Shown here one piece after another: positions 3,482 to 32,824 of a DNA stretch of 34,656 bases. Location: positions 1 through 34,656 of the forward strand of contig CADCIP010000057.1 of assembly GCA_902801485.1 (NCBI GenBank). Reading direction: 5' to 3'. The translations under genes and the position numbers were made by a program. The stretch comes from an uncultured Bacteroidales bacterium (GTDB lineage: Bacteria > Bacteroidota > Bacteroidia > Bacteroidales > Bacteroidaceae). How positions within the stretch are numbered: the stretch's first letter is position 1; the number at the start of each line of letters is the position of its first letter. The notes beneath the pieces were generated by a model. That model had not been told where the DNA came from. It ran no database searches and saw only the letters and a list, made by a program, of their open reading frames with translations.

Positions 3482-4048
3482 TTAAGCTTTTACACGACCC
3501 AAGTATGAACCGTCGCGGCTGTCAACCTCTACAATCTCCCCTTCCTCGATGAACAGAGGAACACGGATCTCGGCACCAGTCTCAACGCGAGCGGGCTTCA
3601 AAGTATTGGTAGCTGTATCACCCTTCAGACCAGGTTCTGTCCAAGTAACCTGCAGATGAACCTTTACAGGAACGTCAGCATACAAAACGGTTTCAGAACT
3701 TGCATCAACAACAACCTCCACATTCTCACTCTCCTTCAGGAAGTTAACGCCGTTAACCAAAGAGGGATGAATGTTAATCTGCTCGAAAGTCTCGTTATTC
3801 ATGAATACCAAGTCCTCACCATCCTTGTAGAGATACTGATAGGGACGACGTTCTACGCGAACATCCTCCAGTTTCTCACCGATGTTGAAACGCTTCTCAA
3901 TAACACCACCGTTTACAACATCCTTCAGGGTTACGTTCATAATAGTGTTTCCCTTACCGGGTTTGCGATGCAGGAAGTCGATACAGAAGTACAGTTTGCC
4001 ATCCATACGGATACAAACGCCTTTCTTAATGTCTTGTGAATTAATCAT
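3482..4048 (-). CDS. efp: Elongation factor P
   Basis: EF-P binds stalled ribosomes between the P and E sites and promotes peptide bonds at polyproline stretches. I chose the ATG at 4048 (MINSQDIKKG); it gives 188 residues, the usual family length, whereas the longer frame to 4120 runs through the promoter. The N-terminal KOW-like domain shows the loop RKPGKGN with K32 at the tip, the position that carries a modification in many bacteria. Two OB-type domains follow, and the C-terminus is the usual DSRDGSYLGR-type ending. It is driven from the repeat-borne promoter at 4091-4121. Confidence 0.95.
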   Translation of the reverse strand: MINSQDIKKGVCIRMDGKLYFCIDFLHRKPGKGNTIMNVTLKDVVNGGVIEKRFNIGEKLEDVRVERRPYQYLYKDGEDLVFMNNETFEQINIHPSLVNGVNFLKESENVEVVVDASSETVLYADVPVKVHLQVTWTEPGLKGDTATNTLKPARVETGAEIRVPLFIEEGEIVEVDSRDGSYLGRVKA

Positions 4049-4090: not shown

Positions 4091-4121
4091 CAAAGGTACG
4101 AATAAGCGAGGGAAATGCAAA
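4091..4121 (-). promoter_or_regulatory. Promoter of efp, inside inverted-repeat copy A
   Basis: The minus strand reads TTTG, 19 bases, TACCTTTG (-7 at 4091-4098), a perfect consensus. It predicts a start near 4084 and a 35-base leader. The promoter lies wholly inside a 96-bp repeat whose other copy drives the opposite operon. Confidence 0.8.
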
Positions 4122-4186
4122 AGAAAACCAGGATTTTCTTTTCATATCCGAGCGAAAGTACTTTCGGCGTTAGCCAAAGGTACGAA
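4091..4186 (-). repeat. 96-bp inverted repeat, copy A
   Basis: 4091-4186 is the reverse complement of 4601-4696 with only two mismatches, and 77 bases (4091-4167) are perfect. It includes the palindrome CGAAAGTACTTTCG (4153-4166). A diverged copy overlaps it at 4175-4258. Copies A and B flank rpmH and each carries an outward promoter. Confidence 0.9.
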
Positions 4187-4258
4187 TAAGTGAGAGAAAA
4201 GCCAAATTTATTTGAACTTTTCCGAACGAAAGTACCTTCGGCGGAGCCAAAGTTACAA
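4175..4258 (-). repeat. Diverged third copy of the promoter-bearing repeat
   Basis: This segment repeats the order seen in copy A: CAAAGGTACGAATAAG, GAG, GAAA, an AT-rich middle, then CGAAAGTACCTTCGG and GCCAAAG. It is head-to-tail with copy A. It keeps a minus-strand TACCTTTG box preceded by TTTG at about 20 bases, so it may be a second efp promoter. It has drifted far more than copies A and B. Confidence 0.6.
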
Positions 4259-4306
4259 AATAAATTGAAAATTGAAAATTGAAAATTGAAAAATTAAGGC
4301 CAATTC

Positions 4307-4337
4307 TTGCGTAATCAGAAAAAAAGTCATAATTTTG
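4307..4337 (+). promoter_or_regulatory. Promoter of rpmH
   Basis: TTG (4307-4309), 20 bases, then TAATTTTG (4330-4337) fits the Bacteroidetes promoter. It predicts a start near 4344 and a leader of about 40 bases. Just upstream (about 4264-4295) is a short tandem run of GAAAATT units. Confidence 0.65.
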
Positions 4338-4382
4338 CACCCCGAATCGGTATAGACAAACAAATAATAAGCAAAATAAGAT

Positions 4383-4538
4383 ATGAAAAGAACATTTCAG
4401 CCCCACAACCGTCGCCGTAACAACAAGCACGGTTTCCGTCAGAGAATGGCCACAGCTAATGGCCGTCGCGTTTTGGCTTCTCGTCGTGCTAAAGGTCGCA
4501 AGAAGTTGACCGTTTCTGACGAGAATCATGGCAAGTAA
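4383..4538 (+). CDS. rpmH: 50S ribosomal protein L34
   Basis: This 51-residue, highly basic protein of the large ribosomal subunit begins [12 protein letters not shown] and continues [26 protein letters not shown], which is the L34 signature. The tail TVSDENHGK is a short extension of the usual 44-47 residues. The gene has its own promoter and terminator. It stands alone, without the usual rnpA neighbour, and is flanked by the 96-bp inverted repeat. Confidence 0.95.
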
Positions 4539-4560
4539 AGTCAATTTTTACTTAAAATAG

Positions 4561-4602
4561 GAAAGAAGTAGGGGCAACTTTACTTCTTTCTTGTTTTTAT
4601 TT
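4561..4602 (+). terminator. Intrinsic terminator of rpmH
   Basis: GAAAGAAGTA (4561-4570) pairs perfectly with TACTTCTTTC (4581-4590) across a 10-base loop. A T-rich tail TTGTTTTTATTT follows. It lies 22 bases after the rpmH stop. Confidence 0.8.
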
Positions 4603-4696
4603 CGTAACTTTGGCTAACACCGAAAGTACTTTCGCTCGGATATGAAAAGAAAATCCTGGTTTTCTTTTGCATTTCCCTCGCTTATTCGTACCTTTG
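4601..4696 (+). repeat. 96-bp inverted repeat, copy B
   Basis: This is the partner of 4091-4186, in reverse orientation, with two mismatches over 96 bases. It starts at the end of the rpmH terminator and ends with the -7 box of the next operon. Confidence 0.9.
4666..4696 (+). promoter_or_regulatory. Promoter of the PASTA-rluD-ddl genes, inside repeat copy B
   Basis: TTTG (4666-4669), 19 bases, TACCTTTG (4689-4696) is a perfect consensus and is identical to the efp promoter. The predicted start near 4703 leaves a leader of about 20 bases before the ATG at 4723. Confidence 0.8.
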
Positions 4697-4722: not shown

Positions 4723-5349
4723 ATGGATTTTTGGAAGAAGCTGACCAGTCCCATTGTTTACTGGAACCTTATTATGCTGGTTCTGGTAAGCATCGTCTTA
4801 CTAATCGTACTATGGTTCTGGATGAAGGACTACTCTCATCACGGCGAGCGTGTGGAGGTTCCTCAGACAAAAGGAATGTTGTTGGCCGATGCAGAGTACG
4901 AGTTGGAAAAGCAAGGCCTGGTGGTTGTCATCTCAGACTCATCCTACAATCGTAACCTGCCCGCAGGAACAGTTCTGGAAATGACTCCTGCTGCAGGCAG
5001 CAAGGTAAAGACAGGCAGAAACATCTACCTTACCATCAACACAAGGAATGTTCCTACCCTACCCATCCCAGATATTGCCGATAACTGCTCGCTGCGTGAA
5101 GCAGAAGCCCGCCTGAAGTCGTTAGGCTTCAAACTGGGCCCCATAGAATATGCACCAGGCGACAAGGATTGGGTACTATCCGTTAAATGCAAGGGACGTA
5201 CCGTTGTAACAGGTGACCGTGTGGAGATTGACTGCCCCATCACCTTAGTGGTAGGTAACAACAACGATGGTATAGGAGACGAGTTTGAGGATGAAGAATG
5301 GGATGACTTCAGTGATGACGAAGTCTCATTATCTTCTGATGAAGAATAA
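4723..5349 (+). CDS. Membrane-anchored PASTA-domain protein
   Basis: This 208-residue protein has a short cytoplasmic N-terminus, one transmembrane helix (about residues 13-34, LIMLVLVSIVLLIVLWFW) and an extracytoplasmic part. Two PASTA domains follow (about 45-107 and 110-178); the first contains the usual AxxxLexxGL and PAGTVLEMTPAAGSKVKTG. PASTA domains bind peptidoglycan fragments or beta-lactam-like ligands. There is no kinase or transpeptidase domain. The C-terminus is strongly acidic (EFEDEEWDDFSDDE). It precedes an RluD-type synthase and ddl, an arrangement I recall as common in Bacteroidales, and ddl makes a cell-wall link plausible. The exact role is unknown. Confidence 0.85.
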   Translation: MDFWKKLTSPIVYWNLIMLVLVSIVLLIVLWFWMKDYSHHGERVEVPQTKGMLLADAEYELEKQGLVVVISDSSYNRNLPAGTVLEMTPAAGSKVKTGRNIYLTINTRNVPTLPIPDIADNCSLREAEARLKSLGFKLGPIEYAPGDKDWVLSVKCKGRTVVTGDRVEIDCPITLVVGNNNDGIGDEFEDEEWDDFSDDEVSLSSDEE

Positions 5350-7581: not shown

Positions 7582-7597
7582 AAGTGTATGGTTGAGA

Positions 7598-7771
7598 GTT
7601 GAGAGTGTAGAGTTGAGAGTCAGTTGAAAAAGTTGAAGGCTGCGATTGAGTGAGAGGAGAAACGAAAGTCGCTTTCAGGCTATCCCGAGCGGAAGTATCC
7701 CGAGCGGAAGCAGTCTCGACCGCAGGTCATAGTTGCAAGTATGAAGTAATAAACTGGTTAAACTCTAAACT
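7598..7771 (+). repeat. Long dispersed repeat, copy 1 (inverted copy at 19716-19881)
   Basis: This 174-base segment matches the reverse complement of 19716-19881. The only differences I see are two small tandem duplications: a 15-base unit ending CGAGCGGAAG doubled here, and a 7-base unit doubled in the other copy. It begins with GAGAGTT heptamers and ends with CTCTAAACT units. Confidence 0.85.
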
Positions 7772-7836
7772 AAATAACTGACTCTAAACTCTAAACTAAA
7801 CAACTGACTCTAAACTCTAAACTAAAATAGACGCAA

Positions 7837-19705: not shown

Positions 19706-19715
19706 TTCATAATTC

Positions 19716-19881
19716 AGTTTAGAGTTTAACCAGTTTATTACTTCATACTTGCAACTATGACCTGCGGTCGAGACTGCTTCCGCTCGGGATAGCCTGAAAG
19801 CGACTTTCGTTTCTCGTTTCTCCTCTCACTCAATCGCAGCCTTCAACTTTTTCAACTGACTCTCAACTCTACACTCTCAAC
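19716..19881 (-). repeat. Long dispersed repeat, copy 2 (inverted copy at 7598-7771)
   Basis: The sequence is the reverse complement of 7598-7771 apart from two short duplications. It fills almost the whole spacer between proB and argD, so the spacer itself is repeat. It contains GCTCGGGATAGCC and CTCAATCGCAGCCTT, blocks also seen near 34020-34094. Confidence 0.85.
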
Positions 19882-19901
19882 TTTTAATCCTTTCTTGACT
19901 C

Positions 19902-31795: not shown

Positions 31796-32824
31796 ATGAG
31801 CAAGAAAGGTCGAATAGGAATAGGTGTCTGTCTAATGGTTCTTTGGGGCATCCTGCTGGCCTACCCTTCTAATATCCTGGCGCAGAAAAGAACCCTGCGA
31901 CAGAAGATTGCACGGTTAGACAGCACGCTCTCTGCCCGTTATTATAAAATCCCATACGATACCAACTACGTGATAAGACCCGTGGGAAGGTGGACACTGA
32001 AAGTGAGGTATAACCAGACGGGTAACACCTTCCATACAAAAGGAACCTTAAAAGGTATTACTTCCAAGTCCGACCTCAGCACCACTCGCAAGAACACAAT
32101 TAGCCTTGGCGCCTCATACAGGGGGCTTTCTGCATCCTTTTCTCTCAATCCTGCCAAGATGAAGGGTATTTATAAGGACTATGAACTCAACCTGAACTAT
32201 TTCAGCAGTCGCATTAGTCTCGACTTCAGTTACCAACGGTCAGAAAGTCTCTCTGGCGACATTCACCTCGCTGACAGAGTACAGCAGTTGGAACAGGGCG
32301 ATCTGGCCATGAAGATTGTCAACATAGCTGGATATTATGCCTTTAACTACCGCAAATTCTCCTTTCCGGCAGCCTTCAACCAGAACTTTATCCAACGTCG
32401 TTCTGCAGGTTCCTGGCTGGCTGGCATCAGCTATCAGGGCGGAAGTATCAACACAACCGAAGACCTGAAGACAAGAAGACCGGAAGCACATGATGTCAGC
32501 CTGAAATTTGGGCATTTAGGCCTTGGTGCGGGCTACGGCTATAATCTGGTACTCGGCAAGAATTGGCTGTTGCATCTTTCTGCCCTGCCTACCTTCGTAG
32601 TCTATAACAGAAATAAGTTAATGCTCAATGACGAGGAACTTGAAGCCAAGCACATGCGTTTCCACATGATTTTCAACGAGCGTGTCGCCATCATATACAA
32701 CTTCTCAAAACGTTATTTTGCCGGTGCTACTCTGGTAATGAACAACTCTGTCTACGATAATGATGCAGGAATTATCAATCAGAACAAGTGGCGTGCCCGT
32801 GCCATCGTAGGTATGCGACTGTAA
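31796..32824 (+). CDS. DUF4421-family outer-membrane-type protein
   Basis: This 342-residue protein starts at 31796 (MSKKGRIGIGV); an upstream TTG is unlikely. An N-terminal hydrophobic stretch ending NILAQ is a signal peptide. The body alternates polar and hydrophobic residues in beta-strand-like fashion (RWTLKVRYNQTG, LGASYRGLSASFSL, ELNLNYFSSRISLDFSYQ) and ends in WRARAIVGMRL, suggesting a beta-barrel. It matches what I recall of the DUF4421 family, common in Bacteroidales and without known function. It follows pfkA by 57 bases. Confidence 0.7.
   Translation: MSKKGRIGIGVCLMVLWGILLAYPSNILAQKRTLRQKIARLDSTLSARYYKIPYDTNYVIRPVGRWTLKVRYNQTGNTFHTKGTLKGITSKSDLSTTRKNTISLGASYRGLSASFSLNPAKMKGIYKDYELNLNYFSSRISLDFSYQRSESLSGDIHLADRVQQLEQGDLAMKIVNIAGYYAFNYRKFSFPAAFNQNFIQRRSAGSWLAGISYQGGSINTTEDLKTRRPEAHDVSLKFGHLGLGAGYGYNLVLGKNWLLHLSALPTFVVYNRNKLMLNDEELEAKHMRFHMIFNERVAIIYNFSKRYFAGATLVMNNSVYDNDAGIINQNKWRARAIVGMRL

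Follow-up and report, generated by a model that had tools for sequence, protein, structure and literature searches.

A short promoter repeat that appears to be inserted, with single-base precision, at the promoter boxes of many genes in Prevotella-like bacteria

Among the elements described so far, the repeat studied here comes closest to BrickBuilt, a MITE, and to the putative mobile promoters. The latter (Matus-Garcia et al. 2012; van Passel et al. 2014) are, as cited in PMC8049555, short repeated intergenic promoter sequences that spread, and passages of PMC4596501 discuss BrickBuilt as a putative mobile promoter. Here we describe a repeat from a window of 34,656 nucleotides, which is the whole stretch of DNA that was analysed. 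Judging from sequence comparisons, the repeat is probably a non-coding, hairpin-structured mobile promoter cassette of ~84 bp that inserts at resident −7 boxes. Copies of this 84-base promoter repeat appear to have been inserted repeatedly and with single-base precision at promoter boxes in Prevotella-like bacteria, and many genes would thereby have gained a copy of one repeat as their on-switch.

In the window, rpmH lies between two arms (4091-4186 and 4601-4696) that form a 96-nt inverted repeat, 98% complementary and with 414 nt between the arms. Recomputation returned the values given in an earlier note on this DNA, namely two mismatches (arm indices 6 and 18) and a perfect run of 77 bases. 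The outermost 31 bases are the same in both arms, and the outer end of either arm reads TTTG-N19-TACCTTTG. The sequence agrees with the outward-facing promoter ends proposed in that note, and the start codon is reached 42 nt past the TTTG at efp and 26 nt past it at the PASTA gene. The inverted repeat is made of two near-identical units of ~84 bp, one reading into efp and the other into the PASTA/rluD/ddl genes. The third, diverged copy that had also been claimed is present at about 4175-4259, with 71% identity to copy B and in tandem with copy A. Pfam matches in the window were found for EF-P, PASTA, pseudouridine synthase, and D-Ala-D-Ala ligase. The coordinates of the features are collected in Table 1.

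Table 1 Repeat units, their promoter elements, and neighbouring genes in the window. R1 is the covariance model of the unit.
Feature	Position	Strand	Basis or remark
Unit A1 (copy A), 84 bp	4091-4174	−	Promoter end faces efp; R1 100.2 bits for 4091-4183
Unit A2, diverged tandem neighbour of A1, 73 bp	4175-4247	−	R1 65.2 bits for 4175-4256
TAACTTTG upstream of A2, probable pre-insertion resident −7 box of efp	4248-4255	−	Sequence
TAACTTTG upstream of unit B, probable resident −7 box of the PASTA gene	4605-4612	+	Left flank alignable to G071 ..TTTTTATTTCGTACCTTTG
Unit B (copy B), 84 bp	4613-4696	+	Promoter end faces the PASTA gene; R1 96.7 bits for 4604-4696
Inner hairpin of unit B	4639-4675	+	Arms 4639-4653 and 4660-4675, bulged G at 4669; covariation (26 units), DNA fold z −3.32
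−33 TTTG of unit B	4666-4669	+	Sequence; part of the inner hairpin's right arm
−7 box TACCTTTG of unit B	4689-4696	+	Sequence; consensus as quoted in PMC7366714
−7 box TACCTTTG of unit A1	4091-4098	−	Sequence
−33 TTTG of unit A1	4118-4121	−	Sequence
Fourth unit match	1987-2078	−	R1 58.6 bits; 35 nt before nucleotidyltransferase-like ORF 1568-1951
efp, target gene of array A	3485-4048	−	Pfam EF-P
rpmH, between the two arrays, its own promoter there too	4383-4538	+	Sequence, locus comparison
PASTA-domain gene, first gene downstream of unit B	4723-5349	+	Pfam

Other repeats were also seen in the window. Two 36-nt arms that abut without a gap (2482-2553, 83% complementary) form a long palindrome, and an ORF contains five repeat copies at 69-nt spacing (244-647), with 63-79% identity to the reference copy. 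A second dispersed repeat occurs in inverted orientation at 7592-7775 and 19712-19887, ~12 kb apart, in blocks of 74-80 nt that are 97-99% complementary and carry the motifs CGAAAGTCGCTTTC and GAGCGGAAG.

The unit belongs to a large family. In the source genome, blastn with the 96-mer gave 40 matches at E ≤ 0.001, and R1, which was built on 26 of the first 30 units (L018, L020, L025, and L030 excluded), gave at least 109 matches at E ≤ 0.01 and at least 81 at 50 bits or more; the R1 counts are lower bounds, as 150 of 2466 candidates were scored. These blastn and R1 matches ruled out a chance palindrome or an isolated duplication. The 80 arrays of the source genome comprised 57 single, 18 double, 4 triple, and 1 quadruple, with a period of 75-88 nt. 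Within the genus, 54 of 61 genomes (source genome included) had R1 matches, at 0 to at least 69 copies per genome. The genomes are incomplete, MAG-like assemblies (the source genome is 85% complete) and some contigs end inside units, so the copy numbers are minima. With blastn, matches were found in 25 of 37 genus genomes and in none of 24 genomes of other families. The earlier note had staked its reading on further copies of the 96-bp unit in the genome or its relatives, and they are abundant.

Across the wider order, 79 genomes of other genera were examined; 6 matched at E ≤ 0.01, and only G085 had matches of at least 40 bits (10 matches, with tandem units of the same build); R1 scores under about 40 bits include some false matches in the relatives' loci, in the rpmH terminator region. 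A pattern scan of named genomes returned at least 119 stretches; among the matches listed, most were from Prevotella or Prevotellaceae MAGs, and many of the listed genomes came from rumen or other gut sources. The 96-mer had no match in phage and plasmid collections. Five IMG/VR contigs (L477-L481) carried the right-end pattern, all five were confirmed by R1, and one of the five units precedes a MutS2-like ORF. Some of these contigs may be host DNA in viral bins, and carriage by phages is possible. The ends of source contigs C64, C41, and C11 lie within or beside units, as expected of a repeat that breaks assemblies. Another short repeat (..CGACTCGGCCAAATGAAAGTAGGCTTTCTATGGCCCTCGCTGCTCTTTCGGTT..) is nested within promoter units on source contigs C16 (~32533-32600, L025) and C9 (~3420, L003).

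By its sequence, the unit ends in a promoter of the Bacteroidota type, TTTG-N19/20-TAnnTTTG, with reference to the −33/−7 consensus as quoted in PMC7366714. Among 81 strong units, 53 had a spacer of 19 nt and 12 had one of 20 nt. How often unit ends lie shortly before start codons, a count proposed in the earlier note, was determined in the source genome: an ORF started within 150 nt in the promoter direction of 66 of 80 arrays (median 32 nt), compared to 20 of 77 in the opposite direction. With equal views of 400 nt and units of at least 50 bits, an ORF start was found downstream in 47 of 54 cases and on the opposite side in 12 of 54. Sites in other genomes that were picked by the 20-base right end only gave 89 of 97 and 38 of 97, respectively. 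Genes for tRNA-Leu and tRNA-Pro are likewise preceded by arrays (L215 891-978 and L220 1283-1356). The genes downstream of units include those that, from protein likeness, we take to be der, leuS, nqrA, gyrB, glyS, leuA, pyrE, and metK. Together, these results supported the view that the repeat is putatively promoter-bearing, with many genomic copies sited before genes. The spreading promoter repeat of the earlier note is likewise supported by this placement, the range from 0 to at least 69 copies within one genus, and the filled and empty sites described below.

At orthologous loci without a unit, the insertion point is the base after the TTTG of the gene's own −7 box, and the filled and empty orthologous sites imply gain or loss of the unit. 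Boundaries with both flanks alignable were read by eye at four places. At the PASTA locus, G027 and G005 are empty and read TTATTAGTATCTTTG followed by their leader, and G008 has a G027-type left flank, one unit, and then TCGCGTAAATA like G027; in G075, two units sit at that same insertion point. The der locus is filled in G027 and empty in G005 and G035, the nqrA locus is filled in G008 and empty in G005, G027, and G075, and a gene on source contig C3 (C3:63470) has a unit in the source genome and none in G069. At four further places, one flank was alignable. The PASTA locus of G071 reads ..TTTTTATTTCGTACCTTTG and then the leader, and the source genome has the matching flank and an 84-bp unit ending in TACCTTTG. 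At efp, where the boundary was read against G071, both G071 and G069 have the native TACTTTTG at the equivalent site and the source genome has two units. The source sites C38:25275 and C7:77505, compared with empty G069/G071, showed the same insertion point. Neither window copy is present at efp in these two close relatives, and G071 also has none at the PASTA gene.

An automatic test on alignments of at least 60% identity placed the boundary exactly after TAnnHTTG in 29 of 57 source-versus-empty alignments, compared to a background of 64 of 9000 positions (0.7%). Alignments from the same locus depend on one another; counted per locus, at least one exact boundary was found for 10 of 15 source loci, and three of the source loci score 34-37 bits and may be weak members. 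The remaining 28 alignments fell off the box, three of them by one base, and many had poorly conserved leaders. Among 74 units with non-array flanks, TAnnHTTG stood to the left of 33, compared to 10 of 222 shifted control windows, and a recognisable left box was absent from 41.

The variable base of the boxes was then compared with the arms of the unit, in a parse that succeeded for 96 of 236 units (no inner arm was detected in 87 of the 236). Among 37 units whose flanks are resident, agreement of the variable base with the inner arm of the unit was seen for the right box in 33 (shuffle mean 14.3; 0 of 5000 shuffles as high) and for the left box in 16 (shuffle mean 11.9; 477 of 5000; not significant). 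In 47 units within arrays, the right box matched in 42 and the left box in 35, i.e., more often. An earlier, looser test of the two boxes pointed in the same direction. The right box follows the unit's arm and the left does not, so the former is part of the unit and the latter part of the site. These comparisons showed that the unit sits exactly after the TTTG of what is predicted to be a resident −7 box (TAnnTTTG) and ends in a TAnnTTTG of its own. Because the unit brings its own TAnnTTTG, the entered box is rebuilt and a target for a further tandem copy is provided. The distance from the rebuilt box to the former 5' leader and the start codon is unchanged, and the renewal of the target agrees with the head-to-tail order of the arrays.

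From left to right, the unit consists of a tail of ~7-14 nt, an arm GAAnnTAC, TTTCGCTCGG, an inner hairpin, CTCGCTTATTCG, and TAnnTTTG. The left tail is usually a small hairpin (mean stem 2.48 compared to 1.31 in shuffles, n = 33), and in 32 of 33 parsed units the left arm is subterminal, with a tail of 7-14 nt outside it. The inner hairpin has 15 pairs and a bulged G, which is the last base of the −33 TTTG. In 26 units, 96.9% of its 390 cells were paired (0 of 500 shuffles equal), 9 of the 15 pairs had changed on both sides, and only 2 of 378 paired cells were G-U. The arms of the inner hairpin covary almost wholly as Watson-Crick pairs, and the hairpin looks like a palindrome maintained at the DNA level. 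The outer pairing of GAAnnTAC with the unit's own TAnnTT was weaker (84% of cells, with one pair broken in 18 of 26 units), and the outer stem was absent from the fold of unit B. For sites picked by the right-end 20-mer only, the DNA upstream had a median fold z of −2.69, with 75 of 129 below −2; control DNA 200 nt further up had a median of −0.10, with 14 of 122 below −2.

Six pairs of units in the source genome were at least 95% identical, comprising five pairs of tandem neighbours and the inverted pair of the window (98.8%). Dispersed pairs reached at most 92.9% identity. With dispersed copies at most 93% alike, no recent genome-wide burst was seen, and recent copying is local. Copies A and B were likely copied locally and recently from one another, because the five other pairs are all tandem. 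Most likely, a single insertion took place near rpmH and was then copied to the other promoter, or the two underwent conversion. The earlier note had proposed that the repeat either spreads or is homogenised by gene conversion; the spread holds up and conversion by itself does not, since the empty sites show insertion at a resident −7 box, and local copying between A and B is still likely. The note had also suggested that recombination between the arms could flip rpmH. In 30 loci (26 scored by pattern and 4 by eye), rpmH had the same orientation relative to efp in all 30, and inversion was rejected as unsupported.

How the cassette might act and spread can be outlined as follows. Its own −33/−7 pair would drive the downstream gene, and the resident promoter would be displaced ~84 bp upstream. 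Spread would depend on machinery for which TTTG is the joining site and which creates no longer target duplication, presumably with an enzyme that cuts at TTTG, and local copying would produce the tandem arrays and the inverted pair that flanks rpmH in the window. Open complexes have a melted −7 element, which hints that the target might be single-stranded promoter DNA. A tentative extension, which we consider possible if rather doubtful, is a new class of site-specific mobile promoters in which the cassette, as a folded single strand, would be joined into the non-template strand where this is melted in the open complex, just after the −7 TTTG. Initiation would expose the target, each insertion would rebuild both promoter and target, and genes, some of them core genes, would progressively swap their native promoters for one parasitic yet functional family across Bacteroidales.

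Several other routes of spread were considered. Spread might need no dedicated enzyme if short-homology recombination or template switching between −7 boxes, with a donor flanked by TAnnTTTG on both sides, were combined with tandem slippage. The TAnnTTTG common to donor and target, and the closest pairs being tandem neighbours and the window's inverted pair, speak for this route. However, such an exchange could fall on either side of the variable nn, yet the right box keeps the unit's nn and the left does not, and the covarying hairpins would be left unexplained; we regard it as unlikely. The TTTG on both sides of the unit could be either a 4-bp target duplication or the cut site. A MITE moved by an IS200/IS605 or REP-type transposase (TnpA_REP, HUH Y1) would move as folded single strands, cleaved at TTTG and joined 3' of a TTTG without duplication. 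The unit matches the Y1 geometry in that it has hairpins, sits 3' of a tetranucleotide that recurs at its right end, and shows no longer duplication, and passages of PMC8266576 describe folded-end recognition and guide-selected cleavage sites in the IS200/IS605-REP family. Transposase genes of this type do not track copy number in the 61 incomplete genus genomes, which makes this route improbable: Y1_Tnp was over the cut-off in 17 of 61 genomes, with a median of 5 copies in genomes with it and 15 in those without, it was present in 3 of the 18 genomes with at least 30 copies, and no R1 match lay near the 8 of 28 Y1 matches that were searched. For rolling-circle elements of the IS91/Y2 type, the Y2_Tnp profile matched 0 of 61 genomes, with its control equally silent. 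There is also only a small chance that the unit is a classical MITE of a DDE transposase, in which the element would be the unit minus TTTG and both TTTG would be a duplicated 4-bp target. TTTG does stand on both flanks, and an element ending in TAnn would rebuild the box. However, the inverted arms are not terminal, given the variable tail outside the left arm, the outer stem is imperfect, and no autonomous copy with a transposase between matching unit ends was found in 2.1 Mb of loci.

Two further explanations were considered. In a regulon without mobility, similar promoters would be kept by selection and the palindromes would be operators for one regulator, as the placement before genes, the promoter spacing, and the palindromic arms would allow. 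Filled and empty orthologous sites with exact boundaries argue against this, with strain arising from the empty sites already, as do the tandem arrays, the variation in copy number within one genus, and the fact that the arms vary in sequence while their pairing stays; we find a regulon very improbable. An RNA element repeated in the genome, such as a small RNA, a terminator, or a leader structure, would account for the hairpins, some of which are followed by T-rich DNA. Covariation in RNA usually includes more G-U than was seen in the inner hairpin, and the window had no Rfam match at gathering thresholds, so that we find this reading barely credible.

If the repeat is indeed a mobile promoter cassette, the promoters of genes such as efp, der, nqrA, glyS, and gyrB in these bacteria would be partly the property of a selfish cassette, which would target promoters and replace them without breaking them. 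Promoter turnover could then be traced directly through filled and empty sites and stacked copies, and one promoter common to unrelated genes would be explained. It would also point to recombination machinery with promoter specificity, and the arrays, with one to four promoters upstream of a gene, would offer a natural series in which to study the tuning of expression.

The unit shares features with several known systems. Integron attC sites are imperfect palindromes whose structure is conserved more than their sequence, and the unit is alike in this respect. Unlike attC, it has no attC end motif, and no integron integrase was over the cut-off in any of the 61 genus genomes, where the search gave weak tyrosine recombinase matches in all 61. 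Like REP/REPIN with TnpA_REP and IS200/IS605, it is a small palindromic intergenic repeat and fits a single-strand cut-and-join geometry, but it shows no Y1 association and both bears a promoter and targets one. As described in passages of PMC4755523, PINSR of Prevotella intermedia/nigrescens is likewise an intergenic repeat of Prevotella, with 177 and 184 copies, without terminal inverted repeats and without a named mobiliser. PINSR differs by its length of 188 bp, and PMC4755523, on which this comparison by description, not sequence, is based, nowhere uses the word promoter. BrickBuilt of Porphyromonas gingivalis resembles the unit as an intergenic repeat of Bacteroidota with promoter activity and tandem subunits, according to passages of PMC4596501. 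Those passages, compared by description only, give BrickBuilt 23-nt repeats, a leader and a tail, terminal inverted repeats, 19 copies, distances of 49-591 nt from coding sequences, and duplications of varying length, and describe no insertion at a −7 box. A description of a repeat inserted at −7 boxes was also not found in the open-licence literature of PubMed Central. The putative mobile promoters, known here via the citing paper PMC8049555, are similar to the unit in being short, repeated, intergenic, promoter-bearing, and spreading. Beside these, the unit has covarying hairpins, tandem arrays, and a defined insertion at the −7 box with rebuilding of that box, and the insertion and rebuilding appear to be a new feature relative to known mobile promoters.
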